Shown here: in pieces, positions 35,167 through 55,216 of the stretch
How positions within the stretch are numbered: the stretch's first letter is position 1
Layout of the letters: each line of letters opens with the position of its first letter
The notes under the pieces: generated by a model
Told to the model about the DNA's origin: nothing
What the model saw: the letters and a program-made list of their open reading frames with translations, nothing else
Databases searched by the model: none
NCBI RefSeq assembly: GCF_016124105.1
Contig: NZ_JADGMQ010000020.1
Span: 1 to 60,726, forward strand
Direction: 5' to 3'
DNA length: 60,726 bases
Source: Aquamicrobium zhengzhouense
GTDB taxonomy: Bacteria > Pseudomonadota > Alphaproteobacteria > Rhizobiales > Rhizobiaceae
Position numbers and translations under genes: made by a program

Positions 35167-36747
35167 ATGACCGACACGTTGGAAGAGCAGATTGCAGCCA
35201 GTCCGTCCCGCCGTGCCGGTGGTCGGGAAGCCAGGCGTGCCCTTCGCGCCGCACCACTTGGCGAGGACATTCGCCCGGTAAAGGCCGGCCTTGAAGGCGG
35301 CCGCTACAAGCCCCTCAACGATGCCGATCTCGACCGCATTCATGAAGCTGTCCTTACGCTTCTCGAAACAGTCGGTTTCGCGAATGCAATTCCTTCCTGC
35401 ATCGAGGCCCTGACCGGCGCGGGTGCCGATCTTGGCGCGGATGGACGCATTCGCTTTCCTCGTCAGCTGGTTCTGGAGACGATCCGCAACGCTGCGCGCA
35501 ACTTCACGCTTTGCGGGCAGGATCCCAGGCATGACATGCGGGTCCAGGGAAGCCGCGTGCATTACGGCACTGCAGGCGCTGCGGTGCACGTCGTCGATGT
35601 CGAGAAGCGCGAATACCGTGAATCGTTGCTGCAGGACATCTATGACGCGGCGCGGATCGTTGACGTCATGGACAACATCCACTTCTTTCAGCGCCCGATG
35701 GTCCCGCGCGACATGGTCGACCCAGCCGATCTCGATCTCAACACGCTATACGCCTGCGTCACAGGCACCACCAAGCATGTCGGCACCTCGTTCACCGTCC
35801 GCGAAAACGTCGCGCCTGCGCTCGACATTCTCCACGCGATTGCCGGCGGCGAAGAAAACTTCCGCGCCCGGCCCTTCGTTTCAAACTCCAACTGCTTCGT
35901 TGTCCCGCCGATGAAGTTTGCCGAGGATGCCTGCGGCGTTCTCGAGGCCTGCGTCGAAGGCGGCATCCCGATCCTGCTTCTCTCTGCCGGACAAGCCGGA
36001 GCAACTGCGCCCGCCGCAATCGCCGGTGCTGTGGTACAGGCCGTTGCCGAGGTTCTCGCCGGCCTCGTCTACGTCAACGCGCTGAAGCCCGGGCACCCCT
36101 GCATCTTCGGAACGTGGCCGTTCGTGTCTGACCTTCGTACCGGCGCCATGTCCGGCGGGTCAGGCGAGCAGGCGCTTCTCACCGCCGCATGCGCGCAGAT
36201 GGCGCAATATTATGACCTTCCGGGTGGCTCTGCCGCGGGCATGGCCGATTCAAAACTCCCGGACATCCAATCGGGCTACGAAAAAGGCATCACGGAAGTG
36301 ATGGCCGGGCTGTCTGGGCTGAACCTGATCTATGAAGCGGCAGGAATGCACGCTTCGCTCCTCGGCTTCAGTCTTGAAAGCCTGATCATCGACAATGACA
36401 TGATTGGGCAATGCCTGCGTTGTGTTCGCGGCATCGAAGTCTCCGACGCTGCCTTGTCTCTCGATGTTATCTCGGATGTCTGCCTCAACGGCCCGGGACA
36501 TTATCTCGGCCATGAGCAGACCCTCCGCCTCATGCAGACCGAATATTTCTATCCTGCGGTTGCTGACCGGTTCAGCCCGAAGGAGTGGAAAGAACGGGGC
36601 AAGCCGGATCTTCTCCAGCGTGCGATCGCGGAAAAGCAGCGCATCCTCGGCAGCCATTTTCCGCGGCACGTGCCAAGAGAGGTCGATGACGCGATACGTG
36701 CCCGCCACCCCAACATCCACCTGTCCCGAAAATCCATGGGCTGGTAG
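35167..36747 (+). CDS. Trimethylamine methyltransferase (MttB) family protein, no pyrrolysine
   Basis: This 526-residue protein belongs to the COG5598 MttB superfamily, whose members transfer a methyl group from quaternary or tertiary amines to a corrinoid protein. The frame is open throughout, with no internal TAG, so it is of the non-pyrrolysine type, like the glycine betaine methyltransferase MtgB. Landmarks are RYKPLNDADLDRIHEAVLTL near the start, SNSNCFVVPPMKFAED in the middle and GGSGEQALLTAACAQMAQYY later. No corrinoid protein, RamA or methyltransferase partner gene is within the window. The substrate may be a betaine such as glycine betaine, proline betaine or carnitine; this is an inference from the family. 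Confidence 0.88.
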   Translation: MTDTLEEQIAASPSRRAGGREARRALRAAPLGEDIRPVKAGLEGGRYKPLNDADLDRIHEAVLTLLETVGFANAIPSCIEALTGAGADLGADGRIRFPRQLVLETIRNAARNFTLCGQDPRHDMRVQGSRVHYGTAGAAVHVVDVEKREYRESLLQDIYDAARIVDVMDNIHFFQRPMVPRDMVDPADLDLNTLYACVTGTTKHVGTSFTVRENVAPALDILHAIAGGEENFRARPFVSNSNCFVVPPMKFAEDACGVLEACVEGGIPILLLSAGQAGATAPAAIAGAVVQAVAEVLAGLVYVNALKPGHPCIFGTWPFVSDLRTGAMSGGSGEQALLTAACAQMAQYYDLPGGSAAGMADSKLPDIQSGYEKGITEVMAGLSGLNLIYEAAGMHASLLGFSLESLIIDNDMIGQCLRCVRGIEVSDAALSLDVISDVCLNGPGHYLGHEQTLRLMQTEYFYPAVADRFSPKEWKERGKPDLLQRAIAEKQRILGSHFPRHVPREVDDAIRARHPNIHLSRKSMGW

Positions 36748-37149
36748 CTATTCGGCGCTGAGGTCGAACCTGGCGAGGACTTTCGGGTTTACGAGCTTGG
36801 CGTGCAGCGACAACAGGACCAGTTGCGCGTCGAGGCTCCCTTCCCGGTCAAGCGCCAGTTCTATCCGCCGCTCGGCATCCTGAACCGCTTCATCCCCGTT
36901 CGCCTGCCGGAAAAGGTCGGGACCGATCAGGCAATAGGCAAACAGCCTTCCTACCGCGCCATAGGCCTCGATCGGCGGCTCTCCATGCGGCCACTGATCC
37001 TTCATCAAATTGACGATGGTCAGCTTCACACCTTCAGGCACCTGCGCAGGATGCAGATCGGCCGCTCGCAGGGCCATATCCAGATTGCGCAAGTCTTCCG
37101 AGCGACCGAAGCGGCCGAGAAAACCCAAGGATGAGTTGCGCCGTGTCAT
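36748..37149 (-). CDS. Conserved-looking hypothetical protein
   Basis: I do not recognise this 133-residue protein. It has a charged, mostly helical sequence without signal peptide or membrane segment. Segments such as AADLHPAQVPEGVKLTIVNL and EPPIEAYGAVGRLFAYCLIG look like a folded domain rather than random translation. The frame fills exactly the space between the MttB-family stop (36747) and the upstream gap, convergent with the methyltransferase gene, which supports it being real. ATG 37149 is chosen over TTG 37152. No function is proposed. Confidence 0.65.
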   Translation of the reverse strand: MTRRNSSLGFLGRFGRSEDLRNLDMALRAADLHPAQVPEGVKLTIVNLMKDQWPHGEPPIEAYGAVGRLFAYCLIGPDLFRQANGDEAVQDAERRIELALDREGSLDAQLVLLSLHAKLVNPKVLARFDLSAE

Positions 37150-37263
37150 CAAGAAGGCCCCATATCATTCGTTTCGTGCGCCAGGCACCTGCAAATACGT
37201 TCGGCTTATTGCATGGTTGCACGAGCTTGGGCTACCACCCTAGCAAATTGGAGGATGAGAGAT

Positions 37264-37713
37264 ATGGCACTGGTCATCGAAGGTGAGGAACGCATTGCGG
37301 CTTCGGTCGACAAGGTCTGGGAGGCTTTGAACGATGTCGAGGTGCTGAAGGAGTGCATCCCTGGATGCGAGAGTCTCGAAAAGACCTCGGACAATGAAAT
37401 GTCTGCCGTCGTTTCTTTGAAGATCGGGCCGATCAAGGCCAAGTTCAACGGCGCAGTCGAATTGGTCAACCTCACCCCACCCACCGCCTACACCATCCAG
37501 GGCGAAGGCAAGGGCGGCATCGCCGGCTTCGCCAAGGGCGGCGCTGACGTAACGCTCGAGGCCGACGGCGACGAAACCATCCTGCGTTATTCTGCCAAGG
37601 CCGATGTCGGCGGCAAGATCGCCCAACTCGGCAGCCGCCTGATCGATTCCACCTCGCGCAAGCTCGCCGGACAATTCTTCTCCTCGTTCAACGAGAAGGT
37701 CAGCGCGGGTTAA
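37264..37713 (+). CDS. CoxG/SRPBCC family protein (carbon monoxide dehydrogenase subunit G-like)
   Basis: This 149-residue protein of the SRPBCC (START-like) superfamily is in the CoxG subgroup. MALVIEGEERIAASVDKVWE is the usual first strand and helix, ECIPGCESLEKT follows, and GEGKGGIAGFAKGGADVTLE is the glycine-rich CoxG-type loop. CoxG anchors CO dehydrogenase to the membrane, but many CoxG-like proteins occur without CoxMSL, as here. The C-terminal membrane-binding segment of true CoxG is missing or very short. GGAGG lies 9 bases before the ATG. Confidence 0.88.
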   Translation: MALVIEGEERIAASVDKVWEALNDVEVLKECIPGCESLEKTSDNEMSAVVSLKIGPIKAKFNGAVELVNLTPPTAYTIQGEGKGGIAGFAKGGADVTLEADGDETILRYSAKADVGGKIAQLGSRLIDSTSRKLAGQFFSSFNEKVSAG

Positions 37714-37728
37714 GGGTCAGCCACCAAG

Positions 37729-37855
37729 CCCCCCTCCACCACCTACGGTGGTCCCCCTCCCCCGTAAACGGCGGAGGATCAGAACGTCGAGCACTACGAT
37801 TCCCGCGGATCCTCCCCGATCTGTGGGGGAGGTGTCGCGAAGCGACGGAGGGGGC
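37729..37855. repeat. TIR-bounded intergenic repeat element, full copy at 37.7 kb
   Basis: Left end GCCCCCCTCC, right end CGGAGGGGGC. The inner blocks GGCGGAGGATC and GGATCCTCCCC pair, as in the 21-kb copy. The right third (GGGGGAGGTGTCGCGAAGCG...) is nearly identical to 37994-38018. Confidence 0.82.
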
Positions 37856-37938
37856 GGCTGGCAGATCCCCGTCCGGCGATTCTCCCAAAGCCACACCTGG
37901 CAAGGCCTCACACTCGAGGCCACTTTTACCGCCGCGCA

Positions 37939-38018
37939 GGGGAGGATCGGAACGGCGAGCACAGCTTCTCCGGGATCCTCCCCCCGTGGGGGAGGTGTCG
38001 CGGAGCGACGGAGGGGGC
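37939..38018. repeat. Intergenic repeat element, truncated copy
   Basis: This begins at GGGGAGGATCGG and ends in GGAGGGGGC. It has the central palindrome and right end but not the left terminal repeat found in the neighbouring full copy. Confidence 0.75.
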
Positions 38019-38060
38019 TCGCGGGCAAACAGGTTTCCACGAAAAACACCCCTACACAAA

Positions 38061-38092
38061 AAAAGCCCCGGACGCTTCCGCCCGGGGCTTTT
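38061..38092 (-). terminator. Terminator of the aldehyde dehydrogenase/Liv operon
   Basis: The stem AAAAGCCCCGG/CCGGGGCTTTT is followed, in the minus direction, by a T-rich stretch. It lies just after the aldehyde dehydrogenase stop. It can also act weakly on plus-strand transcripts. Confidence 0.88.
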
Positions 38093-38097
38093 CGTGA

Positions 38098-39558
38098 TCA
38101 GAATACTGGCGGGTAAGGACGGCCGCCGCGGTCGAGGGTGATCCAGCGGGTCTCGGTGAAGGTTTCGAGCGACCAGCGACCACCGTGCTTGCCAACGCCC
38201 GAGGCCTTGAAGCCGCCAAACGGAACATGCGGCTCATCATTTACCGACGAGCAGTTGACGTGGCAGTTGCCCGTCTCGAGGCGGTTGACGATGGCGAGCG
38301 CACGCGCTTCATCGCGGCTCATCACGCCAGCCGACAGGCCGTATTCGGTGTCGTTGGCAATGGCGATCGCTTCGTCGTCGGTTCGGAACGGGATCACCGG
38401 GACAACAGGACCGAACGTCTCTTCCTGATAGATCTTCATGTCCGGGGTAACGCCGGTCAGGATCGTCGGCTCGACATAACGGCCTTCAATCTTGCCACCG
38501 AGCACCACCTTGGCGCCCTTGGCAATGGCATCTTCCAGCTGCTCCCTGACGCGCGCGACCTGCTTGTCGTTGATCAGCGGGCCGATGATGTGTTCCTTGC
38601 TCTTGGTCGGATCGCCAACCTTGAGCTTCGACGCGCGTTCAACAAAGCGCTTGAGGAAATCGTCAAAGATCTTCTCATGCACGAGCACTTTTTCGACGGC
38701 CATGCAGATCTGGCCCTGGTGCATGAACGAGCCAAAGTTGGCGGCCTGCGTTGCCCGCTCCATTTCCGCATCGTCCAGAACGATAATCGAGTCCTTGCCA
38801 CCAAGCTCAACGCAGCACTTCTTCAGATGCGCGCCCGCCTTGGCTGCGATCTGGCGGCCAACTGCTGTCGAACCCGTGAACGAGATACCCTTCACGTAAG
38901 GATGCTCGATCAGCTCGTCGCCAACTTCCTGAACGTTGTCGCGCGAGCAGGTGACGACATTAAAGACGCCCTTCGGCAGGCCGGCTTCCTCGAAGATTTC
39001 CGCGAACAGAAGACCGCCGAGATACGGGGTTTCTTCCGATGGCTTGAGAACGATCGTGTTGCCGGCGGCCAGCGGGAAAAGGAAACCGCGTGCAGTGAGG
39101 ATGCACGGAAAGTTCCACGGGCTGATGACCGAGACGACGCCCATCGGGCGGCGAACCGCCATCGACACCTTGCCGTATTCCGACGGCATCACGTCACCGA
39201 CCGGGTTCCACACCGAAGCTGCAGCAGCATGGAAGACTTCGGTCACATAGCCGGTTTCGAACATGCCCTTGCCGAACCAGCCGCCGCCTTCAGCCTGGAT
39301 CGCGTCGATGATCTCCATCTTGCGACGTTCCCAGATCTCGGCGGCCTTTGTGATGTAGCCAGCACGCTTGGAAAATGGCAGCTGCGACCATTCGTGGAAG
39401 GCTTCCTGAGCAGCTTCGATGGCAGCTGAGGTTTCGGCGCGGCCGCAATCCGGCACCTCGGCCCAGACCGAGCCATCAGCCGGATTATAATCCTTGAACG
39501 TATTCTTTGCGCCGGTCCATCCGCCGCCAATATACATGCCTTCAAATACGCGAGCCAT
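38098..39558 (-). CDS. Aldehyde dehydrogenase (first, distal in the Liv operon)
   Basis: This NAD(P)-dependent aldehyde dehydrogenase of 486 residues oxidises an aldehyde to the acid. The catalytic Cys285 is in MHQGQICMAVEK and the general base Glu251 in CVELGGKDS. The cofactor motif SFTGSTAVG is at about 226-234, and the ISPWNFP block is present. The overall type is that of benzaldehyde/vanillin/salicylaldehyde dehydrogenases, but the substrate is unproven. It lies 17 bases after the extended LivF gene as the last gene of the operon and shares a transcript with a second aldehyde dehydrogenase at its head. Confidence 0.93.
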   Translation of the reverse strand: MARVFEGMYIGGGWTGAKNTFKDYNPADGSVWAEVPDCGRAETSAAIEAAQEAFHEWSQLPFSKRAGYITKAAEIWERRKMEIIDAIQAEGGGWFGKGMFETGYVTEVFHAAAASVWNPVGDVMPSEYGKVSMAVRRPMGVVSVISPWNFPCILTARGFLFPLAAGNTIVLKPSEETPYLGGLLFAEIFEEAGLPKGVFNVVTCSRDNVQEVGDELIEHPYVKGISFTGSTAVGRQIAAKAGAHLKKCCVELGGKDSIIVLDDAEMERATQAANFGSFMHQGQICMAVEKVLVHEKIFDDFLKRFVERASKLKVGDPTKSKEHIIGPLINDKQVARVREQLEDAIAKGAKVVLGGKIEGRYVEPTILTGVTPDMKIYQEETFGPVVPVIPFRTDDEAIAIANDTEYGLSAGVMSRDEARALAIVNRLETGNCHVNCSSVNDEPHVPFGGFKASGVGKHGGRWSLETFTETRWITLDRGGRPYPPVF

Positions 39559-39575: not shown

Positions 39576-41387
39576 TCAGTGGTTGTCGCCCCGTGCGGGG
39601 TCAGTTTCTGGAACAGCCGGCCGCATCAAAGACGGCTGCGTTGGAATGGTGTAGGCAGTCAGGCCCTTGCGGTTCTTCGCAATGTGCGCCGCCTGTATCG
39701 AAGCTGCGCGTGAGACGAGTTCGCGGACAGAGGCATCCTTCGGACCTTCCACCAGCACATTGTCCGCAGCATTCGCTGGCGGAGCCGCTGTCGTAGGAGC
39801 TACGCCGATTTTCCGGGGCTCTGGAGGCTGCCATTGCGGAATGTCTGCGATCTTCGTCCGGCGAAGGCGCGCTACATGTTCGGCGTGGCGCGCGGCAGCG
39901 CGCGTTGCCATATCCGCAAATGAATCCGCCTGTGGCGCGGTGGCAGTGAGCGTTGTGCCCGCAGGTTCCCGCGTCACAGAACTTAAATCGGAAACCTGCG
40001 CGAACTGGGCAAGCCCCTTGCGCCGCATGGCGATATGCGCCGCCTGAATCTGTGCGGCCCGTGCCGCAAGGTCGGCTGCGGACAGTCGCACGGGCTGATC
40101 CACCTTCTGCCGGTTCCCGCGCGGCTCATCCTCATCATCGATCGACAGGCCACCGCTATTATGCCCGATCAGGCTGGGGCGCGGCTCTGGGGCTACGTCC
40201 CGGATTTCCGGCGTTTCGGGATTAACCGCGACAGGCTTCTCCGGAAGCTCCTGACGAACCAGTGCCTTTTCAAAAGCGCTAGGACTCGGCGCCGTCAGAC
40301 GTGACGAGGTGATGTGAGCAGCAAGCCGCTGCGAAGCGCGAAGCGCATAGTCACTCGCGCTCTCGGCAAGGCGAGCGGCATCCGCTGCCGCGCTGCGCGG
40401 CGTGTTGGGCACGAATGCAGGCGCCGATGCTTCTGCCACCGCGATCTCAGCCCATGGATCCGGGATCGTCTTCGGATCATAACGCCCGACGAAGGCCGAT
40501 GGCGGGGGTGCATCACGCCGTAGGGCGCGCACAAATGCCCACTGGATGCGCCCTGCCCGTGCCGCCAAAGCGGAGACAGCCCGCCCCAGCGCATCAACCG
40601 ACAAGGGCAAGCGCAGTGCAGACGGCAGGCTGAAGCGAGGCTTGACCCCGTCCTTCTTGGGCGCAGGCGCAGTGCCCGACTTGGCACCTCCAAGGTAAGC
40701 GCTGACCACGGCCGGATCGTTCATCAACGCTGCCGCCGTGTTTTCGCCGGTGACGAGACCGTTTTCGATCAGATAGCCGCGCTGTGCGATCTTCAGGCTC
40801 TGCCGCGCATTCTGCTCAACGAGCAGAATGCCTACACCGGTCTTGGCGACTTCCGCCAGCGCGCGGAAAAGCTCTTGCGACAGGAGCGGCGACAGACCGA
40901 GCGATGGCTCGTCTAGCATCAGGATGTCGGGTTTCGACATCAGCGCACGGCCGATTGCCACCATCTGCTGCTCGCCGCCCGACATGGTGCGGGCGATCTG
41001 CGTCTTGCGTTCGCCAAGGCGCGGGAACAGGCGGTAGATGTCGGCGAGTGTCGCCGTCTCGCTCGAGCGTGCACGTTTGGCGAAGGCACCAAGCTGCAGG
41101 TTTTCGGCCACCGTCAGATCGCCGAAAATGCCACGGCCTTCCGGCACGAGCGCGATGCCCTCCTCGACGATCTGGTGCGCCTTGAGGGTGGTGATGTCCT
41201 TGCCGTTCATGATGACAGAGCCGCTTTCGCTCTTCACCATGCCGCCAATCACCTTGAGCAGCGTCGACTTGCCGGCACCGTTGGCACCGAGAATAACGCA
41301 GATCTGACCCTTATCGACCTTCAGGCTCGTTCCCTGTAGCGCCCGGTGACGGCCGTAGGAAACGGATACGTTCCTGACCTCAAGCAT
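39576..41387 (-). CDS. LivF-type ABC ATPase with a 368-residue C-terminal repeat extension
   Basis: Residues 1-235 are a complete LivF ATPase: Walker A GANGAGKST (34-42), signature MSGGEQQ (135-141) and Walker B ILMLDEP. LivF proteins normally end near AYLGG (230-234). Here the frame continues 368 residues, rich in Ala, Pro and Arg. Helical units recur at about 436-460, 489-512 and 553-577 around RAAxIQAAHIAxxRKGL, with weaker copies at 266-291 and 336-363. IGHNSGG at 407-413 is a motif remembered from other alphaproteobacterial proteins. The start overlaps the livG stop by 8 bases. The ATPase energises the importer; the tail is of unknown role. Confidence 0.9.
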   Translation of the reverse strand: MLEVRNVSVSYGRHRALQGTSLKVDKGQICVILGANGAGKSTLLKVIGGMVKSESGSVIMNGKDITTLKAHQIVEEGIALVPEGRGIFGDLTVAENLQLGAFAKRARSSETATLADIYRLFPRLGERKTQIARTMSGGEQQMVAIGRALMSKPDILMLDEPSLGLSPLLSQELFRALAEVAKTGVGILLVEQNARQSLKIAQRGYLIENGLVTGENTAAALMNDPAVVSAYLGGAKSGTAPAPKKDGVKPRFSLPSALRLPLSVDALGRAVSALAARAGRIQWAFVRALRRDAPPPSAFVGRYDPKTIPDPWAEIAVAEASAPAFVPNTPRSAAADAARLAESASDYALRASQRLAAHITSSRLTAPSPSAFEKALVRQELPEKPVAVNPETPEIRDVAPEPRPSLIGHNSGGLSIDDEDEPRGNRQKVDQPVRLSAADLAARAAQIQAAHIAMRRKGLAQFAQVSDLSSVTREPAGTTLTATAPQADSFADMATRAAARHAEHVARLRRTKIADIPQWQPPEPRKIGVAPTTAAPPANAADNVLVEGPKDASVRELVSRAASIQAAHIAKNRKGLTAYTIPTQPSLMRPAVPETDPARGDNH

Positions 41388-42111
41388 CGTCGTCTCCCAG
41401 ATACGCACGCACAACTTCGGGATCGGACAGCGTCTCGGCGACGCCACCTTCAGCAATCTTCACGCCGCTCGACATCACGACGCAGCGGTCGCAGAGCGTG
41501 CGGATCGCGTCCATCACATGTTCGACCATGATGATGGTGCGCCCTTCAGCGCGCAGTTCGGCAATGAGTTCGATGCCGATCTGCAATTCGCTCGGGTTAA
41601 GGCCCGCGAGCCATTCGTCGAGCAACAGAACGCGCGGGTTCGACGCCAGCGAACGGGCAAGCTCCACACGCTTCTGATCGATATAGGTCATGGCCGAGAC
41701 GGGCATGTGTGCACGTCCGCCAAGACCGACACGCTCAAGAAGCTGGTGAGCAAGCTTGCGGGCTTCCTCACCCCACAGGCGCTGGTGCCCGAAGACGGCA
41801 CCGGCCATGACGTTCTCTTCAGCGTCGAGCGACGGCAGGACGCGGACGAGCTGAAATGTGCGCGACACCCCCTTGCGGGCAATGTGATGCGCCGACAGGC
41901 CGGAGATGCGCTCGTGTCCCAGCTTGATTTCGCCGGCGGTAGGCTTCAGTGCGCCGGAGATAAGATTCATCATCGTCGTCTTGCCGGAGCCATTCGGGCC
42001 GATCAGGCCGAACAGTTCGCCGTCAAAGACGTCGAAGGAGACATTGTTAACAGCAACAAGCCCGCCAAATTGCTTGCGAACGTTGCGGACGGAAAGTGCG
42101 TAAGCGCTCAT
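41380..42111 (-). CDS. Branched-chain-type ABC transporter ATP-binding protein (LivG-like)
   Basis: This 243-residue ATPase is the LivG partner of the HAAT-family importer. Walker A is GPNGSGKTT, in IGPNGSGKTTMMNLISG. The signature region is YIDQKRVELARSLA, with the usual LivG departure from LSGGQ, and Walker B is VLLLDEWLAGLNP. The family-typical C-terminus AEGGVAETLSDPEVVRAYLG is present. It overlaps livM (ATGA) upstream and livF downstream. There is no extension here, unlike LivF. Confidence 0.94.
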   Translation of the reverse strand: MSAYALSVRNVRKQFGGLVAVNNVSFDVFDGELFGLIGPNGSGKTTMMNLISGALKPTAGEIKLGHERISGLSAHHIARKGVSRTFQLVRVLPSLDAEENVMAGAVFGHQRLWGEEARKLAHQLLERVGLGGRAHMPVSAMTYIDQKRVELARSLASNPRVLLLDEWLAGLNPSELQIGIELIAELRAEGRTIIMVEHVMDAIRTLCDRCVVMSSGVKIAEGGVAETLSDPEVVRAYLGDDDA

Positions 42112-43097
42112 GGATGCGCCTCCGCAGGCTTGTCAGCTGTCGCGTGAGCCGCCGTTCGCGCCTGCCACTTCGCCCTGGCCTGCTCGAGAAGCCCGGTGAT
42201 GCCATTCGGCACGAAGTAGACGATGGCAAGGAATGCGATACCCATCACGATCGGCATCTGGTTCGGCAGCTTCGCCGAGACGAAGTCCATGACGAAGATG
42301 AACGGCACGACGCCAACCAGCGGACCCCACAGGCGCTTGGTGCCCCCCAGGAGAGACATGATGACCACGAGGAACGAGATGTTCGGATTGAAGGCGGACG
42401 GCGGCTGGATGTAGGCGTAGCGAGGTGCGCAGATGGCACCCGCAATGCCTATGAAGGCGCCCGAGATCATGAAAAGCAGGATCTTCGAGCGCGCGGTGTC
42501 GATGCCGACATGCTTGGCCACCGTCTCGTCATTGCCGATGATCTGCATGGCAAAGCCAAGGCGCGAGCGGTTGATCGCCCAGCCGGTGATGAAGATCACG
42601 ACGGTCAGCGCTAAGAGCATCCAGAAGATGTGCATCTCGCGGAAGTCGGTGAAGACGTAGAGGCCCGTCTTGCCGGTGTATTTCGCCTGCGCCCAGGTCA
42701 CGACCTGACGGACGAGCTCGGCAAGACCAAGCGTGAAGATGACAAAGTAGACACCGGAAAGGCGCAGCGTCGCTGCACCGACCAGCCCGGCGAGAATGGC
42801 CGCCGCCAACGCGCCGAAGATGACGAGAATCGGGAACGGAATACTCTCGATCCCAAGCGCGACCGCATAGGTGCCGAGACCAAAGAAAGCGGCGGATGCC
42901 AGCGACACATAGTGGGTCGGGCCGGAGAACAGCGTCCAGGCGGTGCAGAGCGCCGCATAGAGCATGAGGTTAACCGACAGGGACAGGTAATAGCCCTGAT
43001 CGAACAGGGGCAGCAGCGCTGCGACTGCCGCAGCGACGGCAATCCCTATGCCAATGCGCAGCTCTTTTTGCGTGATGCCGAACGGAAGTTCGCTCAT
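42108..43097 (-). CDS. Branched-chain-type ABC transporter permease (LivM-like)
   Basis: This inner-membrane permease of 329 residues has about nine to ten helices. GLGTYAVAL and ATLRLSGVYFVIFTLGLAEL are LivM landmarks. GNDETVAKHVGIDTARSKIL is the cytoplasmic loop that contacts the ATPase, and the ending FVPNGITGLLEQARAKWQAR is typical. It overlaps livH by 4 bases. LivM and LivH form the channel for the binding-protein ligand. Confidence 0.94.
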   Translation of the reverse strand: MSELPFGITQKELRIGIGIAVAAAVAALLPLFDQGYYLSLSVNLMLYAALCTAWTLFSGPTHYVSLASAAFFGLGTYAVALGIESIPFPILVIFGALAAAILAGLVGAATLRLSGVYFVIFTLGLAELVRQVVTWAQAKYTGKTGLYVFTDFREMHIFWMLLALTVVIFITGWAINRSRLGFAMQIIGNDETVAKHVGIDTARSKILLFMISGAFIGIAGAICAPRYAYIQPPSAFNPNISFLVVIMSLLGGTKRLWGPLVGVVPFIFVMDFVSAKLPNQMPIVMGIAFLAIVYFVPNGITGLLEQARAKWQARTAAHATADKPAEAHP

Positions 43098-43960
43098 GTG
43101 GTGCGCCTCCCGAAAATCCCTTGCGGGCGAACAAGCAGGATGAGGATGAACAGGGTGTAAGTCGCTGCGAGCGTGAGGCCCGGGTCGATGTAGGTGGCGA
43201 CCAGCGTTTCAGCGATGCCAAGGATCAGCGCTGCCACCACCGCGCCGCGTACGTCGCCTACACCACCCATGATGACGATGATCAGAGCCTTCATAGTGAA
43301 GGTCACGCCCATCGAGGCGTTGAATGTGTAGAACGTCGACAGAAGCGCGCCACCGCAAGCGGTGAGCGCCCCGCCGAGCGCGAAGGTAACTGCCGCAACC
43401 TTGGCAACGTCAATCGCCACCAGATTTGCGGAATTGGGGTCGACTGCCACCGCGCGCACGGCCGTTCCAAGCCGGGTGCGGTAGAGGAAGTAGTACAAAA
43501 TGGCGGCAATAATGACCGCCGCGATGAAAGCGACGACGCGGTTCAGGCCGAACGCGTTGCCGAAAATCATGAAGCGTTCGGAGAGGAACTGATAGGAAAA
43601 ATACTCGCCGCCGAAGCCGGAAATCATCAATCCCTGCAGAAGGAACATCAGGCCGAACGTTGCCAGGATCGAATCCACCTCGAGCTGGCCCCGGCTCTTG
43701 GCCCGGTCCACCAGTGGCTTGAGCGCTACCTTGTAGATGCCCCAGTTGAAGGCAAATGCCAGCGGCGCAATGATGAGAAGCCCGAAGATGGGGTTGATCG
43801 CGAAAGAGGCGAACAGCCAGAAGGCGATGAAGCATCCAGCGACAAGCGTCTCGCCATTGGCGAGATTCATGATGCGCGCGACGCCGTATTGGAGCGTAAG
43901 GCCTAGCGCTATCAGCGCGTAGGTCCCGCTCAACAATATGCCGGTGACGATGATCTGCAT
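43094..43960 (-). CDS. Branched-chain-type ABC transporter permease (LivH-like)
   Basis: This 288-residue permease opens with GILLSGTYALIALGLTLQYG and ARIMNLANGE, both LivH marks. AVAVDPNSANLVAIDVAKVA is the ATPase-contact loop, and IVIMGGVGDVRGAVVAALIL is the conserved late helix. It ends at LLVRPQGIFGRR. The gene follows the binding-protein gene after a 70-bp gap that contains a perfect hairpin. Confidence 0.94.
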   Translation of the reverse strand: MQIIVTGILLSGTYALIALGLTLQYGVARIMNLANGETLVAGCFIAFWLFASFAINPIFGLLIIAPLAFAFNWGIYKVALKPLVDRAKSRGQLEVDSILATFGLMFLLQGLMISGFGGEYFSYQFLSERFMIFGNAFGLNRVVAFIAAVIIAAILYYFLYRTRLGTAVRAVAVDPNSANLVAIDVAKVAAVTFALGGALTACGGALLSTFYTFNASMGVTFTMKALIIVIMGGVGDVRGAVVAALILGIAETLVATYIDPGLTLAATYTLFILILLVRPQGIFGRRTT

Positions 43961-44030: not shown

Positions 44031-45230
44031 TTATTCCCAGCCGTTCTTCTTGACCGGCTCGGCCGAGATCGACATGCCATCAGCTGCAACAGCAACGAAG
44101 TTGCCATCGCGCCACTGGCCAACGGTCCAGACGTTCTGATTCACGTTGTCGACGAACTTCACCTCACCAATTACCGTGTCGAAGGTGCCCGACTTGATCG
44201 CTTCGATCACAGCCGCGCGGTCCTTGGTTCCGGCGGCTTCGATAGCCTGGCCGAGGATCTGCAGACCAGCATAGGTCGTCGCGCTCGCCCAGAAGTCAGG
44301 GCCAGTGCCAGCAGATTCAGTGTGACGCTTGATGTAGTCGGCAACCTTCGGGTTATCGATGTCGATGCCGCCAATGCCCATCACGCCTTCAGCGGCCTTG
44401 CCGAAGCGAGCGGCGAAGGGCGGGAATGCCGTGCCGACACCGGTGTAGAACGCGCCGACTTCAAGGTTCTGGATCTGCGCCTGCTCTGTCAGGGCGAACG
44501 TCTCGCCCGGATAGGAGAAGCCGACGAACGCGTCCGGAGCAGCCGCCTTGGCAGCGGAGATCACCGGAGCCAGATCCTGCGTTCCGAGCGGGAACGATGC
44601 TTCGTAGACGATCTCGAAATTCGCGGCTTCAAGCGCTGGCTTGGCTGCACCGACAAGTTCAAGACCGAAGGCGTCGGCAACGTGAACCAGAGCCACCTTA
44701 TTGCCGATGTCACCCTTGTCGCGCAGCTTTACCAGTGAGGCGACTGCCCCTTCTGCCAGCTGGGTTGCGGTGCCGAGCATCCAGAACGAGTTCGGCCAAC
44801 GTGCAGCGAATTCGGCTACGCCGTCGGTTGCCGCGCTGGTGGTGATGTGCGGGAAACCGTACTGCGCGATGATCGGCGCGGTCGCAACGTTGATGCCGGT
44901 CGAGTACGGGGTAACGATGAAGTCAACCTTGTCGACGGTCGCCAGACGCTGGATGTTCTGGATCGCGGTTTCAGCCGAGGTCTGATCGTCATATTCGACG
45001 ACTTCGATCGTGTGCTTGATGCCGCCAATGTCGAGGCCGCCAGCTGCGTTGACTTCGTCAACCCAGAGCTTGATGTTCGGCCAGTGGGTCATTGCGCCGC
45101 CGCCTGCGAGCGGGCCGGTCTTCGGCGCGCTGGCGCCGATCTTCAAGACTTCCTGAGCATAGGCGCCGGTAACGCCCAAGGCTGCCACGGCAACCGATGT
45201 GCCCAGTGCAATGAATGTTCTTCTCAACAT
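44031..45230 (-). CDS. Branched-chain-type ABC transporter substrate-binding protein (LivK-like)
   Basis: This periplasmic receptor has 399 residues. The signal peptide MLRRTFIALGTSVAVAALGV ends near AYAQ (about residue 25). The mature start EVLKIGASAPKTGPLAGGG is the type-I periplasmic-binding-protein opening. VDFIVTPYSTGINVATAPI and YDDQTSAETAIQNIQRLA follow. GGGAGG is 6-7 bases before ATG 45230; the longer frame overlaps the upstream gene and is rejected. HAAT receptors bind amino acids, amides, urea or aromatic acids. The flanking aldehyde dehydrogenases favour a non-amino-acid ligand. Confidence 0.94.
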   Translation of the reverse strand: MLRRTFIALGTSVAVAALGVTGAYAQEVLKIGASAPKTGPLAGGGAMTHWPNIKLWVDEVNAAGGLDIGGIKHTIEVVEYDDQTSAETAIQNIQRLATVDKVDFIVTPYSTGINVATAPIIAQYGFPHITTSAATDGVAEFAARWPNSFWMLGTATQLAEGAVASLVKLRDKGDIGNKVALVHVADAFGLELVGAAKPALEAANFEIVYEASFPLGTQDLAPVISAAKAAAPDAFVGFSYPGETFALTEQAQIQNLEVGAFYTGVGTAFPPFAARFGKAAEGVMGIGGIDIDNPKVADYIKRHTESAGTGPDFWASATTYAGLQILGQAIEAAGTKDRAAVIEAIKSGTFDTVIGEVKFVDNVNQNVWTVGQWRDGNFVAVAADGMSISAEPVKKNGWE

Positions 45231-45283
45231 GTCATAACCTCCCTTTGAATAGTCACGATTGCGGTATCCCCCGCGGGTATGCG

Positions 45284-46684
45284 TCAGATCGGGTAATCCT
45301 GTTTCCCGCTCTGAATGGTGATCCACCGAAGCTCGGTGAACTCATCGATGCCGGCGCGGCCGCCAAACCGGCCCCATCCCGATGCCTTGACGCCCCCAAA
45401 GGGCATCTGCGGCTCGTCATAGATTGTCGTCCCGTTGATGTGGCAAATTCCGGTTTCAAGCCGCCGTGCCACATCAAGCGCGCGGCCGACATCCCGTCCG
45501 AAGACGGCAGCCGCGAGGCCGTATTCCGTGTCATTTGCGATCGAGACAGCTTCATCGATATCGGCATACCGGATGACGCAGGCGACGGGGCCGAACGTCT
45601 CCTCGTAATAAATCCGCATGTTCGGTGTGACGCCATCGAGAATGGTGGCATCGAGCCAGGCGCCCTCGTGCCGCCCGCCCGCGACGAGGCGTGCGCCTTT
45701 CGTCACCGCATCATCGATCAAACCACGTACGCGTGCTGCTGCCTGCTCGGAAATCATCGGCCCGATGCGGCTTTCCGGCTTGTCCGGATCGCCGACAGTC
45801 ATGCGCTCCGCACGAGCCTTCATCGCGTCAATGAAGTCATCCGCGAGGTCTTCGTGAACAATTAGGCGCTCGGTCGAGATGCAGATCTGGCCCTGATGGA
45901 AGAACGCACCATAGGCGGCAGCGGCAACCGCCTCGTCCGTGTCTGCATCATCGAGAACAATCAGCGGCGCCTTCCCACCCAGCTCAAGCAAGGAGCGCTT
46001 GAGGTGCTGTGCGCAGATAGATGCGATGACCTTGCCTGCCCGGGTGGAGCCGGTGAAATTCACGCGCCGCACGGCGGGATGAGCGATCAGCGCCTCGACG
46101 ATTTCCTCGGCGTGGTCGATTTCATTATGGATGACGCCAACCACACCTTGAGGCAAACCGGCTTCGTACAAAACCTGCGCAATCAGCTCATGTGTCTGCG
46201 GGCAAAGTTCGGATGCCTTGAAGACGACCGTGTTGCCGCAAGCAAGTGGCCATGCGAGTGCCCGCGTCGCCAGGACGATCGGTGCATTCCACGGGGCCAT
46301 CGACAACACGACGCCACAGGGCTGGCGCAGTGCCATCGAAATCGCTTCCGGCTTGTTTACAGGAACGACCTCGCCGGTGATCTGCGTTGCCATTGCTCCG
46401 GCTTCACGCAGAATCGAGGCGCCAAGCTTCAGATTGAGATCACTCCAGGCGGCCGTTCCGCCGGTCTCTTCCGCAATGAGCCTGACGAAATCATCGCGAT
46501 GGGCGAGGAGAAGATCGGCGGCCTTTTCCAGGATATACCGCCGTTGCTCGGGAGCGGTCCGGGACCAGCGCGGGAAAGAAGAGGCAGCGACATTGGCCGC
46601 ATGCTTCGCCTCGGCGACAGTCGAGGCTTTCCAGCTTCCCGCCAAATTGATGGTCGTGGTCGTGTCGCGCACGGCCTTGTTCAA
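45284..46684 (-). CDS. Aldehyde dehydrogenase (second, at the head of the Liv operon)
   Basis: This 466-residue aldehyde dehydrogenase resembles vanillin/salicylaldehyde dehydrogenases. The catalytic Cys268 is in FHQGQICISTE, Glu234 in LLELGGKAP, and NFTGSTRAG lies at 209-217. The start codon is TTG (46684-46682), supported by GGGGAGG five bases upstream. It is separated by 53 bases from the LivK-like gene, so it is the first gene of a seven-gene operon. The divergent AraC gene and a 21-bp-period direct repeat lie in its promoter region. It shares only family-level similarity with the distal aldehyde dehydrogenase, so they are not recent duplicates. Confidence 0.93.
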   Translation of the reverse strand: MNKAVRDTTTTINLAGSWKASTVAEAKHAANVAASSFPRWSRTAPEQRRYILEKAADLLLAHRDDFVRLIAEETGGTAAWSDLNLKLGASILREAGAMATQITGEVVPVNKPEAISMALRQPCGVVLSMAPWNAPIVLATRALAWPLACGNTVVFKASELCPQTHELIAQVLYEAGLPQGVVGVIHNEIDHAEEIVEALIAHPAVRRVNFTGSTRAGKVIASICAQHLKRSLLELGGKAPLIVLDDADTDEAVAAAAYGAFFHQGQICISTERLIVHEDLADDFIDAMKARAERMTVGDPDKPESRIGPMISEQAAARVRGLIDDAVTKGARLVAGGRHEGAWLDATILDGVTPNMRIYYEETFGPVACVIRYADIDEAVSIANDTEYGLAAAVFGRDVGRALDVARRLETGICHINGTTIYDEPQMPFGGVKASGWGRFGGRAGIDEFTELRWITIQSGKQDYPI

Positions 46685-46889: not shown

Positions 46890-47759
46890 TTGAAAGCAGA
46901 GCGGGTTGAAAGCAGCCTCCATCCAAGAATCTGGTCCTTTAACAGGCAAGCAGATTCATCCGGTCGACAGTTTCTTCTTCTGACCGACGGAGATGGAGAA
47001 GCGGAAAGCGAGCAGCATCGCTTTTCTATTGCCGCACCTGCTTGCGTCTGGATCGGCTCACTTTCCGCGGGCAAACTGCGCGTGGATGCTGGAGCGACGG
47101 GCTATCGCTGCTGGGCCTCGGAACCGCTGGTGATCGCGGCAATCGGCGATCAGGCGGAGTCCGTCAGCCTGCATCAGCTTGCCGACAGAAGCTTTTCGCT
47201 CTCGCTTGCCCGCCATGAAGACCATGCTGCCACGCTGGAACGCTGCTGTAACGGCATATTGCGGGAGTTGCGGCAACCGATGGACGGCTCGCCGCTCCTC
47301 CTGTCAGCGTTCTTGCGCATCATGCTCGTCTCCATGCTGCGGATTACCGGCGGCGAGGACGCAGCCGCGTCGGGAAGCGGCGCGCGGTCAGGAATCTTGC
47401 GCAGGTTCCGCCAGCTGGTGGAGATGAATTTTCGCAGCCATTGGCCGGTATCGCGCTATGCCGCCTCACTTGGGATTTCCGCTGATCGTCTCCACGCAAT
47501 CTGCACCTCGGAAATCGGCAAGTCGCCCAAGGCGCTCATCTCCGAAAGACTGGCACATGAGGCGGCCCTGCGGCTTGAGCGATCCTCGCTGACGATAGAG
47601 CAACTTGGTCATGCGCTGGGCTTTCAGGATCCGGCGCATTTTTCCAGCTTCTTCAAACGCATGATCGGGATGCCGCCAGGGCGCTATCGAAAGATCGCTG
47701 CCAACCTCCAGCAAGAGGGCCGCAAGACCCCCGCACCGGGCTTTGCCGACTGGCCCTGA
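46890..47759 (+). CDS. AraC-family transcriptional regulator
   Basis: This regulator of 289 residues has a C-terminal AraC DNA-binding domain (about 175-275). The first helix-turn-helix is in SRYAASLGISADRLHAIC, and the second in IEQLGHALGFQDPAHFSSFF, followed by MIGMPPGRYRK. The N-terminal 150 residues are probably a cupin-type sensor domain like those that bind aromatic acids (weak evidence: RFSIAAPACVWIGSLSAG). The start codon is TTG, with GGTGAAGA just upstream; no ATG is available nearby. It is divergent from the aldehyde dehydrogenase/Liv operon and is the likely regulator. Confidence 0.9.
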   Translation: MKAERVESSLHPRIWSFNRQADSSGRQFLLLTDGDGEAESEQHRFSIAAPACVWIGSLSAGKLRVDAGATGYRCWASEPLVIAAIGDQAESVSLHQLADRSFSLSLARHEDHAATLERCCNGILRELRQPMDGSPLLLSAFLRIMLVSMLRITGGEDAAASGSGARSGILRRFRQLVEMNFRSHWPVSRYAASLGISADRLHAICTSEIGKSPKALISERLAHEAALRLERSSLTIEQLGHALGFQDPAHFSSFFKRMIGMPPGRYRKIAANLQQEGRKTPAPGFADWP

Positions 47760-48657: not shown

Positions 48658-49941
48658 TTAGTTCGGCATCGTGTGACGGCGATTGACGTGCACGGGGCGG
48701 CCCGGCAGGTTCAGCTTGGTGTCGCGGCGCGGACGCTCGGCCACCACATTGCCCTTCGAGACAACAGCAATGCGTTCGGCGCGCAGGCGGATCGCCTCGA
48801 TCGTGTCATTGGCGTCGAGCACGACGAGGCTCGCCGTCTTGCCGACCTCAAGGCCATAACCTTCAAGGTTCATGACCGCCGCGTTCTCACGGGTCACGAT
48901 GTCGAAGCATTTGCGCATATCGTCCGGATGCGTCATCTGCCCGACATGCAGGCCCATGAACGCAACGTCGAGCATGTCGCCATTGCCGAGCGAGTACCAT
49001 GGGTCGAGCACGCAATCCTGACCGAAGCCGACGCGGATGCCATACTTGAGCATCTCCGGCACGCGGGTCATGCCCCGGCGCTTTGGATAGGTGTCGTGAC
49101 GGCCCTGGATGACGATGTTGATCAGCGGGTTAGCGATCGCCGAGACCTGCGCTTCCGCCATCATCGGTAGAAGCTTCGAGACGTAATAATTGTCCATCGA
49201 ATGCATCGAGGTCAGGTGCGAGCCGTTGGAGCGGCCCTGAAGCCCAAGGCGCTGCGTCTCGTAAACCAGCTGTTCGATGTGGCGCGACATCGGATCGTCG
49301 GTTTCGTCGCAGTGCAGATCGATCATCTTGCCGCGTGCGGCTGCGATCTCGCAAAGTTCCGTCACCGAGCGACGGCCATCTTCCATCGTGCGTTCGAAAT
49401 GCGGAATGCCGCCGACGACGTCCGCGCCCATGTCGAGCGCACGGATCGTGTTTTCGCGCGCGGTCGGGTCGCGATAGAGGCCGTCCTGCGGGAAGGCGAC
49501 CAGTTGCAGATCAAGATAGGGCGCGACTTCCTTCTTGACCTCGAGCAGCGCTTCGAGCGCCAGCAAACGGTCATCGCAGGTGTCGACATGCGTGCGAATG
49601 GCGAGAAGGCCCATCGAGACGGCCCAGTCGCAATAATCCAGCGCGCGCTGCTTCACGGCCTCATGCGTCAGAAGCGGCTTCAGCTCTCCCCAGAGCGCAA
49701 TGCCTTCCAGAAGCGTGCCCGACGCGTTGATGCGCGGAATGCCGTAGCTCAGCGTCGCATCCATATGAAAGTGCGGATCGACGAAAGGCGGCGAAACCAG
49801 CGAGCCTTCGGCGTCGATGACGCGGCCGGCCTCGGCTTCGATCTTCGGTTCGATCGCGGCGATCTTGTCGCCGGAAATAGCTATGTCGGCGGTGCGGCCA
49901 TCCGGCAGCACACCGTTCTTGACGATCAGGTCGAAGCTCAT
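48658..49941 (-). CDS. Cytosine deaminase-like amidohydrolase
   Basis: This metal-dependent amidohydrolase of the CodA type has 427 residues. Metal ligands are visible in DPHFHMDAT (HxH), LHCDETDD, SHLTSMHSMD and GQDCVLDPWYSLGNGDML, in the order and spacing of E. coli cytosine deaminase. It would deaminate cytosine to uracil, or a related base such as isoguanine or creatinine. ATG 49941 overlaps the permease stop (ATGA); the long upstream frame lies inside that gene. It is the last gene of a BMP-type ABC transporter operon, consistent with use of an imported nucleobase or nucleoside. Confidence 0.92.
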   Translation of the reverse strand: MSFDLIVKNGVLPDGRTADIAISGDKIAAIEPKIEAEAGRVIDAEGSLVSPPFVDPHFHMDATLSYGIPRINASGTLLEGIALWGELKPLLTHEAVKQRALDYCDWAVSMGLLAIRTHVDTCDDRLLALEALLEVKKEVAPYLDLQLVAFPQDGLYRDPTARENTIRALDMGADVVGGIPHFERTMEDGRRSVTELCEIAAARGKMIDLHCDETDDPMSRHIEQLVYETQRLGLQGRSNGSHLTSMHSMDNYYVSKLLPMMAEAQVSAIANPLINIVIQGRHDTYPKRRGMTRVPEMLKYGIRVGFGQDCVLDPWYSLGNGDMLDVAFMGLHVGQMTHPDDMRKCFDIVTRENAAVMNLEGYGLEVGKTASLVVLDANDTIEAIRLRAERIAVVSKGNVVAERPRRDTKLNLPGRPVHVNRRHTMPN

Positions 49942-50882
49942 CTTTCGCCTTTCTGGTAGGGGATCATTAGCGCCTTCGGATAGGAGGCCCGGCGCGACAT
50001 GACAATCAGCGCAAGGATCGACAACACGAACGGCATCATCAGGAACAGCTGGTAAGGCACTGCGCCACCTGTCAGCTGCTGCAAACGAACCTGATAGGCA
50101 TCGAATGCGGCAAAGAGAATCGCGCCCAGAAGCGCCTTGCCCGGACGCCACGAGCCGAAGACGACGAGCGCGATGCAGATCCAGCCACGGCCGTTGATCA
50201 TCTCGAAGAAGAACGAGTTGAAGGCGGACATGGTCAGGAACGCGCCGCCAACCGCCATCAGGGCGCTGCCAACCATCACTGCGCCCATACGGATCGCGGT
50301 GACGCTGATGCCTTGGGCTTCGACAGCCGACGGGTTTTCACCCGCTGCCCGCACGGCAAGGCCAAGCGGGGTGCGATAGAGCACCCACGCGACGAGCGCG
50401 ACGGTGACGAAGGCAAGATAGGTCAGCGGCGTCTGGTTGAAGAGCGCCGGTCCAATGATCGGGATCTCGGACAGAACCGGAATCGGCAGCGGCTGAAACG
50501 CCTCGATACGCGGCGGCGACGTCACTTCCGGCAGCACCAGTCGATAGGTGAAGTAGGAAAGGCTCGTTGCGAGAAGCGTGATGCCGATGCCGACAACATG
50601 CTGCGACAGGCCAAGTGGCACCGTCAGCGTCGCATGCAGAAGACCGAAGGCAGCGCCAGCTAACGCGGCGACCATGACGCCGAACCAGAGATCACCGCCA
50701 AGATAGACGGTCACCCAGCCCGAAAACGCCCCCGCAACCATGATGCCCTCGATGCCGAGGTTCAACACGCCCGCACGCTCGCAGATAAGTTCGCCCATCG
50801 TCGCAAAGATCAGCGGCGAGGCGATGCGGATAGCGGCAACCCAGAAGGATGCTGTGAGAAGGATATCGAAGGCTTCGATCAT
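49938..50882 (-). CDS. BMP-type (nucleoside) ABC transporter permease, second
   Basis: This inner-membrane permease (314 residues) of the type found in NupQ/YufQ transporters belongs to the branched-chain-like permease superfamily. GELICERAGVLNLGIEGIMV is its hallmark near residue 30. AVRAAGENPSAVEAQGISVT is the ATPase-contact loop, and GGRGWICIALVVFG-like helices follow (NGRGWICIALVVFG). It is translated after a 262-bp gap filled by repeats, which is unusual within an otherwise compact operon. Its stop overlaps the deaminase start. Confidence 0.94.
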   Translation of the reverse strand: MIEAFDILLTASFWVAAIRIASPLIFATMGELICERAGVLNLGIEGIMVAGAFSGWVTVYLGGDLWFGVMVAALAGAAFGLLHATLTVPLGLSQHVVGIGITLLATSLSYFTYRLVLPEVTSPPRIEAFQPLPIPVLSEIPIIGPALFNQTPLTYLAFVTVALVAWVLYRTPLGLAVRAAGENPSAVEAQGISVTAIRMGAVMVGSALMAVGGAFLTMSAFNSFFFEMINGRGWICIALVVFGSWRPGKALLGAILFAAFDAYQVRLQQLTGGAVPYQLFLMMPFVLSILALIVMSRRASYPKALMIPYQKGER

Positions 50883-50888
50883 AGCGAG

Positions 50889-51061
50889 GCCCCCTCCACC
50901 ATGCTGCGCATGGTCCCCCTCCCCCGCTTCGATGGGGAGGATCCGAAGTCACCGATCCCGCTTGCCTGGCGCCTCCCCCGCTTCGCACGGGTGGATCCGA
51001 CGTTGCCGCTGCTGATCCTCCCCCGTTCACGGGGGAGGTGGCGCGAAGCGCCGGAGGGGGC
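50889..51061. repeat. TIR-bounded intergenic repeat element, copy inside the BMP operon
   Basis: Left end GCCCCCTCC (50889-50897), right end CGGAGGGGGC (51052-51061). At 173 bp it is longer than the 21-kb copy because the central GGAGGATCCGA/CTCCCCCG module appears twice. It separates the two permease genes of one operon. Open frames on both strands in the region are by-products of the repeats. Confidence 0.82.
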
Positions 51062-51130
51062 GGCCATCGTGGGGGCGGCCATCGTGGGGGCGGCCAACGG
51101 GGGGGCGGCCAACGTGGGGGCGGCCAACGA
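51056..51130. repeat. Five tandem 15-bp repeats next to the intergenic element
   Basis: The unit GGGGGCGGCCAWCGN occurs five times with no gap (51056, 51071, 51086, 51101, 51116). The first two have ATCGT, the last three AACGG, AACGT and AACGA. It starts on the terminal GGGGGC of the repeat element, so it seems to have grown by slippage from its right end. Confidence 0.95.
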
Positions 51131-51144
51131 AAACATCATTGTCA

Positions 51145-52194: not shown

Positions 52195-52260
52195 GGTGTG
52201 GCCTCGAAGCTGAAATACAAACCGGCAACGCAAGGCGTTGCAGAGCGATACTGGCTAGCA

Positions 52261-53781: not shown

Positions 53782-53866
53782 GAGTCCGCAGATGTGTCGA
53801 CAGCAGAGGCTGCCCGTCAAGGACAGGGCAGGCAGAAGGGTGTTTCCTCCACCTGCCCCATGAAAT

Positions 53867-53890
53867 TCTGCCTCCCGTCGGGGAGGCAGA
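53867..53890 (-). other. Perfect 10-bp hairpin after the BMP-family gene
   Basis: TCTGCCTCCC (53867-53876) pairs exactly with GGGAGGCAGA (53881-53890) around a 4-base loop, 8 bases past the stop of the binding-protein gene. No T run follows, so it is more likely an mRNA-protecting structure than a full terminator. Confidence 0.85.
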
Positions 53891-53898
53891 GTGATGTA

Positions 53899-54936: not shown

Positions 54937-55216
54937 TTGACCACCTCTGGCTGGCACGGATTCAAAAAACGTCCGTTTTTATCTTTCAGCGAACCTATGC
55001 GAATTTCCAGCACCCGGCAATCGGATGACTTTCTTTCGCGCACACCGGTTTTACTGCGATAAAATTGGGCGACATGGTCATGGCCGCCCGCCTGAACGCC
55101 CTTCGAGGAAGGTCCCCACGTTCGACCCTGATCGGCTTCTCCTAGCGCCTGAACGCCCGTCTTCCTAGCGCCCTTCGCATACATCCACTGATTTAGGGAT
55201 TTTTCCGGCGCTAGGC
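54937..55216. other. 280-bp intergenic region between engB and the BMP operon
   Basis: No gene is visible. It must contain the promoter of the BMP operon and the end of the engB transcript. CGCCTGAACGCCC occurs twice (near 55089 and 55147), and CCTAGCGCC/CCTAGCGCCC also occurs twice, so there is local repetition, but I see no known riboswitch or terminator. Confidence 0.4.

Follow-up and report, generated by a model that had tools for sequence, protein, structure and literature searches.

A conserved C-terminal tail of repeated helices on a LivF-type importer ATPase of Aquamicrobium zhengzhouense, with a possible role in docking an aldehyde dehydrogenase

LivF-type ATPases of ATP-binding cassette (ABC) importers usually comprise about 235 residues and carry no tail. 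In a stretch of DNA from Aquamicrobium zhengzhouense (contig NZ_JADGMQ010000020.1 of assembly GCF_016124105.1, positions 1 to 60,726, the whole of which we call the window) one such protein is 603 residues long, which raises the question of what the additional 368 residues are and what they may do. The gene starts at the ATG at 41387 (-), inside the open frame 39576-41456(-). Its core (residues 1-235, 40683..41387, minus strand) contains the Walker A motif GANGAGKST and the signature MSGGEQQ, and its tail (residues 236-603 and the stop codon) takes up 39576..40682 on the same strand. An original prediction, made from the sequence alone, had described a core of about 235 residues followed by an in-frame extension, and LivF-type profiles do stop near residue 235: ABC_tran of Pfam matches residues 17-162 (E 2.2e-31), and the best NCBIfam match, PRK11614, covers residues 1-234 with 255.9 bits, which is below its curated cut-off of 441, so we refer to the protein as LivF-type rather than as the curated equivalog. 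The stop codon is followed after 17 bases by the ATG of the next gene (39558); this distance and all coordinates given in the original prediction hold.

Searching the residues beyond 235 alone, in databases and with profiles, brought up orthologous tails and no curated family: the best Pfam match to residues 236-603 reached only E 0.68 (DUF2259), NCBIfam and PHROG had none, and the tail profile matched no PDB sequence at E<=1. LivF proteins whose tails bear the repeat units described below were found in 30 genomes, that of the window included, with 24 in the family and six more in the order (G725 and G660, both Pelagibacterium-like, G490, G561, G494 and G611). In the family, 34 of 394 genomes matched the tail at E<=0.01. 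On inspection 24 of these matches were LivF tails, and the remaining ten were stretches without any frame bearing an ABC signature; a contig end cuts off the core for G315 and most of it for G364. Among 60 relatives, own genome included, four matched at the same threshold, one of them (G016) by chance in an unrelated frame, and within the genus the tail was present in three of eight genomes. The named carriers, all already counted among the G-numbered genomes, are Aminobacter sp. J41, Mesorhizobium microcysteis, two Pelagibacterium species, Chelativorans sp. ZYF759, one Mesorhizobium metagenome-assembled genome (MAG) and three other MAGs. Scanning contigs with the single tail sequence gave no match, an alignment-based scan gave nine loci, and no plasmid copy of the tail was found in PLSDB. 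The same-genus genome G002 has a tail-less LivF of 239 residues with an aldehyde dehydrogenase gene directly next to it and no separate tail gene.

Both base composition and substitution patterns indicate that the tail is coding and under selection. Its GC content by codon position (0.72/0.58/0.65, vs 0.65/0.43/0.77 in the core) is coding-like and shifted by Ala and Pro. None of the internal ATG, GTG or TTG codons of this frame is preceded, over 20 bases, by a sequence resembling AGGA, GGAGG or AAGGA, which makes a separately started gene unlikely, and we rejected this candidate. In eight pairs the ratio of nonsynonymous to synonymous substitution rates (dN/dS) was 0.16-0.35 for the tail vs 0.02-0.12 for the core, with several dS values above 1 and so near saturation; between the window and Aminobacter sp. 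J41 it was 0.20 for the tail and 0.06 for the core, the tail dS being 1.45, near saturation. For the units alone dN/dS was 0.08-0.19 (seven computable pairs), and for the rest of the tail 0.19-0.50. The tail is under purifying selection, and its units more strongly than the linkers.

The original prediction had recognised three clear and two degenerate units, and all five were found at the places described, with the conserved Arg at residues 277 and 350 (degenerate) and 443, 496 and 560 (clear). The consensus, drawn from 86 units of 29 loci, spans about 20 residues and reads A-D-L-A-x-R-A-x-x-I-Q-x-A-H-V-x-x-x-R. The regular expression used to count units demands R/H, A/T/S, an aliphatic residue or R/H, H/F/Y/Q, another aliphatic residue and R; part of the conservation at these positions thus stems from the way in which units were recognised. 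A profile of 76 orthologue units, from which those of the window (L027) and of its closest relative (L018) were excluded, gave five matches of 27.3-39.6 bits in the window tail; the best of 2000 composition-preserving shuffles scored 9.3 bits and the LivF core -3.1. All on the minus strand, the units lie at 40515..40583 (unit 1, RAVSALAARAGRIQWAFVRALRR), 40296..40364 (unit 2, ESASDYALRASQRLAAHITSSRL, with PSAF next), 40017..40085 (unit 3, LSAADLAARAAQIQAAHIAMRRK), 39858..39926 (unit 4, DSFADMATRAAARHAEHVARLRR) and 39666..39734 (unit 5, ASVRELVSRAASIQAAHIAKNRK, with GLTAYTIP next). PSAF follows about 40 of the 86 units; behind unit 1 it forms part of PSAFVGRYDPK (40470..40502), among the most conserved stretches of the tail. 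A further motif, LIGHNSGGLSIDDE (40131..40172, minus strand), occurs as GLIGHNSAG or similar in most orthologues. The number of units identified by the regular expression (1-5, the lowest count including the contig-cut L024) and the length of the tail vary, partly because whole unit-plus-linker blocks were lost or gained. The LivF frame of L049:1-2457 (G372) has a tail that runs for at least 382 residues before masked bases, with AHDAAMRA-type repeats and PAPEPAPEP linkers, and that thus nearly equals the longest ones seen, such as that of L018 (393 residues). As the original prediction had argued, the tail is not a missed-stop artefact: orthologous tails, the tail dN/dS and unit profile matches far above those of shuffles led us to reject a run-on.

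AlphaFold2, run on the tail with eight orthologues as input, predicted helices at tail residues 29-57, 98-130, 202-227, 253-275 and 319-335, which correspond to the five units, and two further short ones at 78-81 and 137-142. Ten-residue means of the predicted local confidence (pLDDT) peak at 79, 94, 88, 90 and 79 on the unit helices and are mostly below 50-60 in the linkers; overall the model has a mean pLDDT of 58.8 and a predicted template modelling score (pTM) of 0.20. A model of the whole protein places helices at the same sites; as its quality is low also in the core (mean pLDDT 48.6, from a thin alignment), it was used for local helices only. The tail is thus predicted to resemble beads on a string, separate helices without packing on mostly disordered linkers, and, judging from their spacing, L(-3), R(0), A(+1), I(+4) and H/F(+8) of a unit would share one helix face. 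No convincing match to the unit profile was seen in other proteins of 20 related genomes, own genome included (nothing better than E=0.029 among the best 150 or fewer candidates per genome). In PDB the unit profile matched 21 residues of a P450 (E=0.0019) and, with E>2, two DARPins. GHNSG was considered as a genome-wide tag and rejected: scanning the own genome for the DNA pattern yielded 10 matches vs 14 in a reversed control and, once translated, only the match in LivF has the tail motif context. Of three papers listed for GHNSG, none is on this subject by its title. We conclude that the tail is a genuine, conserved, in-frame extension of LivF under selection, mostly disordered by prediction, with five copies of a helix of about 20 residues in the window and a variable number elsewhere.

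Two aldehyde dehydrogenase (ALDH) genes flank the importer genes, ALDH1 directly downstream of livF (38098..39558, minus strand, with the Shine-Dalgarno sequence AAGGAGG behind the livF stop) and ALDH2 at the head of the operon (45284..46684, minus strand), and the presence of a tail follows the type of the gene downstream. Where an ALDH1-type gene lies directly downstream on the same strand, LivF has a tail in 32 of 33 loci (29/30 tabulated and 3/3 at class level); where a separate ALDH2-type gene comes next, LivF is tail-less in 16 of 16 (12/12 and 4/4). The order and class searches took the best three candidates per genome from a profile containing the tail. A non-exhaustive sample of 59 LivF loci, taken from the top of the list, was tabulated; in the remaining rows of the order search no open frame exceeds 524 residues, which is not long enough for a fusion. 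The table excludes second loci where a gene had more than one, the paralogous LivFs L010-L013 and L015-L017, loci matched by chance (L004, for example) and proteins that lack the LivF core or signature because a contig ends there (L021, L034 and L042). In 26 of the 59, window included, a unit tail goes with an ALDH1-type gene on the same strand, and two further unit-tail loci show no ALDH within the stretch, so that the downstream gene is of ALDH1 type in 26 of the 26 unit-tail loci where it is readable. Three loci (L074, L124 and L125) combine another kind of tail with an ALDH1-type gene, 12 are tail-less with an ALDH2-type gene, 12 are fused to an ALDH2-type enzyme, and single loci are tail-less with ALDH1 on the same strand (L077), tail-less with ALDH1 on the opposite strand (L075), tail-less with no ALDH, and an out-of-frame run-on into the ALDH gene (L094).

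Outside the order, the class contributed 15 further loci. Three are tailed, all ahead of an ALDH1-type gene, of which L127 and L128 are near-identical and from a single genus; four are tail-less ahead of an ALDH2-type gene; and eight have no ALDH in the stretch and end in tails of 3-5 residues, except L140 with 24. L140 is the second LivF copy in G963, and its first tail residues nearly match the L127 tail before the stop. The tails of L126, L127, L074 and L125 have in common the stretch L-xxx-L-x-E-[IM]-E-xx-A, and three of the four also IE-hydrophobic-Y/W near the end, so that a second, more distant tail type also accompanies ALDH1. A similar operon occurs on Neorhizobium plasmids, where the tail is a different one and has no units by the regular expression. 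In Neorhizobium galegae VafX2 (L124:7732-8949) the LivF tail appears by eye to contain a GC-rich palindromic repeat of intergenic type read in frame (CTCCCCGC...GCGGGGAG), and the window gap 37714-38097 resembles that repeat, again by eye.

In sister lineages LivF and an ALDH are joined in a single frame. Such fusions were found in 12 of the 58 order genomes matching at E<=1e-90, from five families (loci L080, L085, L089, L090, L093 and L117-L123). In all 12, where the protein junction was read, the LivF frame is followed by a linker of 11-93 residues and the dehydrogenase, with no stop between. The fused enzyme is 56-60% identical to ALDH2 of the window and 43-44% to ALDH1 (seven compared). 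On a tree of the LivF core (61 rows, 10 of them fused; L090 and L093 were missed by a filter and are absent) the fused state requires four changes, and starred branches force two of these. These Hyphomicrobiales proteins are like the arrangement proposed below in that LivF physically carries, rather than possibly docks, an aldehyde dehydrogenase, and differ from the window LivF in the ALDH2-type enzyme, the absence of units and the linkers of 11-93 residues. What they show is repeated joining of LivF with an aldehyde dehydrogenase, not binding of ALDH1 to a tail.

The order of the operon is araC (divergent) / ALDH2-SBP-LivH-LivM-LivG-LivF(tail)-ALDH1, so that LivF is accompanied by the other importer components: LivG (41380..42111), LivM (42108..43097), LivH (43094..43960) and the periplasmic substrate-binding protein (SBP, 44031..45326, Peripla_BP_6), all on the minus strand. 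The AraC-type regulator (HTH_18) is at 46890..47759 (+). The same order is kept in L018, L019 and L020, and in L024 up to the contig end within LivF; L025 and L026 have an extra ALDH ahead of the SBP, and L022 and L023 a different first ALDH and no AraC match. ALDH1 is 87-95% identical to that of the window in rows whose tail is of the GHNS type and 67-80% in those unit-tail rows that are more distant. No NCBIfam model was above its cut-off for ALDH1 or ALDH2 among the 25 of 36 matches listed; the solved structures nearest ALDH1 are those of a salicylaldehyde dehydrogenase, a vanillin dehydrogenase and one ALDH named only as such, and they give a hint of its substrate only. Adjoining the importer operon on the opposite strand (35167-37713) are genes for an MttB-family methyltransferase, a CoxG-like protein and a GntR/aminotransferase (MocR-type) regulator. 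A second importer, of Bmp/BPD_transp_2 type, lies with an amidohydrolase at 48658-54957, and relatives of its permease and of the amidohydrolase also flank the operon in L018 and L024.

What, then, might the tail do? The explanation we favour, tentatively and at somewhat less than an even chance, is that the tail docks ALDH1 at several sites and so keeps it at the importer. Each helix would act as a docking peptide, its conserved face (L, R, A, I, H) contacting one partner common to all, and repetition of the helices would make the tail a multivalent tether. The likeliest partner would be ALDH1, as it is encoded immediately downstream and is of the same type in every readable unit-tail locus. 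The tether might keep several dehydrogenase subunits beside the importer, and an aldehyde entering the cell, or made at the membrane, might be oxidised at the site of entry. A docking or scaffold tie to the flanking aldehyde dehydrogenases had been suggested in the original prediction; the association with ALDH1-type neighbours (32/33) and the 12 sister fusions support it indirectly, and the type of the fused enzyme does not.

Indeed, several observations weigh against docking of ALDH1. By its identity the fused enzyme belongs with ALDH2, and the enzyme encoded beside the tail is of the other type, ALDH1. At all nine junctions with DNA examined an AAGGAG- or GGAG-like sequence precedes the internal Met, so that free ALDH may also be made, and possibly one gene gives rise to both fusion and free enzyme. 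L077 is tail-less ahead of ALDH1 on the same strand, and L094 demonstrates that out-of-frame run-ons into the ALDH gene occur. The unit-tail state (28 of the 61 rows of the LivF core tree) requires only two changes, which we interpret as a single gain and a loss at L075, and the 26 co-occurrences therefore represent few, phylogenetically nested events. Finally, dN/dS of the GHNS region was 0.06-0.67 (six computable pairs), and constraint there is not always strong.

Docking of some other partner, be it LivG, another cytoplasmic pathway enzyme, a signalling protein or the tail itself, with clustering of importers into patches, seems to us unlikely. The units resemble repeated binding helices whatever they bind, and UrtE, an ATPase of LivF type, is a binding partner of the soluble PII protein (PMC6603209); such a partner would not account for the tail tracking the downstream ALDH type or for the fusion of sister LivFs to ALDH. 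We regard as quite improbable that the tail is a regulatory or a membrane- or anion-binding appendage, whose amphipathic basic helices and Lys-rich end make contact with lipids, nucleic acids or polyphosphate, or tune the ATPase activity. Many orthologues end in a Lys-rich run (KKRKKHKEA or similar), the hydrophobic moment is 0.49 for unit 1 and 0.47 for unit 4, and C-terminal regulatory domains are described on other ABC importers in the part of PMC10710835 available. However, the Lys-rich end is missing from the window, L018, L022, L023 and L045; the final KEA letters of the L018, L019 and L026 tails are the AAGGAGG Shine-Dalgarno of ALDH1, which places selection on mRNA rather than protein; the mean hydrophobicity of the five window units is negative, and units other than 1 and 4 have moments of 0.03-0.35; and AlphaFold2 predicts no folded domain.

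The same overlap bears on a neutral, translation-level explanation, in which LivF lost its stop, the frame ran through the spacer to the next Shine-Dalgarno and the extension was kept only for translational coupling to ALDH1. Several LivF frames do end in or beside that Shine-Dalgarno, and identity outside the units and GHNS is loose (0.40-0.83). This explanation is already disfavoured and very improbable, as the units are kept across families under the constraint described above, far beyond chance, and coupling requires a nearby stop, not 370 residues, with LivF and ALDH adjacent also in the tail-less relative; coupling probably adds to the tail without explaining it. That the tail reflects an error of sequencing or annotation, or is really a gene of its own, has nothing but the unusual length in its favour and is refuted by the same architecture in 30 genomes and by the lack of an internal start with a Shine-Dalgarno-like sequence, so that practically no weight is left to it.

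A docking tail of this kind would have parallels in known systems. In the Chlamydomonas pyrenoid, RBMP2 has a long C-terminal region with six motifs and EPYC1 is a disordered linker carrying such motifs, for which binding was shown (the available part of PMC9614477). By analogy with RBMP1, RBMP2 and EPYC1, LivF may join a membrane protein to repeated enzyme-docking motifs, independent helices on flexible linkers, and its tail has, by prediction, the repeated short helices and the disordered chain of such a linker. These proteins are eukaryotic and their enzyme is Rubisco, with EPYC1 binding demonstrated, in contrast to the binding that we infer for LivF. PDB sequence searches showed no homology of tail or units to EPYC1 or RBMP, and the likeness is drawn from design rather than direct comparison. 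UrtE-PII of cyanobacteria is like the proposed LivF in that a LivF-type ATPase directly binds a soluble cytoplasmic protein, and unlike it in that the partner is a regulator, not an enzyme; the available part of that source mentions no repeat tail (PMC6603209). Importer ATPases with C-terminal regulatory domains, such as MetN with its C2 domain, also carry an extra C-terminal module, but theirs is folded, ligand-binding and dimerising (PMC10710835, as far as available), whereas the LivF tail is predicted as unpacked separate helices. Among the open-licence papers listed, judged by title or the start of the abstract, none concerned this LivF tail or LivF-ALDH fusions.

An ABC importer is usually regarded as separate from the enzymes that act on its cargo. 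The present locus points, though with clearly less than even confidence, to an importer-enzyme metabolon, in which the helix string of an ATPase would recruit a soluble aldehyde dehydrogenase to the membrane and uptake and first oxidation would be physically coupled, an end that sister lineages would have reached by fusing both proteins several times. With a conserved ATPase tail beside one type of enzyme and with the sister fusions, the coupling of import and metabolism in bacteria becomes directly testable and, if the proposal is true, the unit would be a natural, modular docking helix of about 20 residues.
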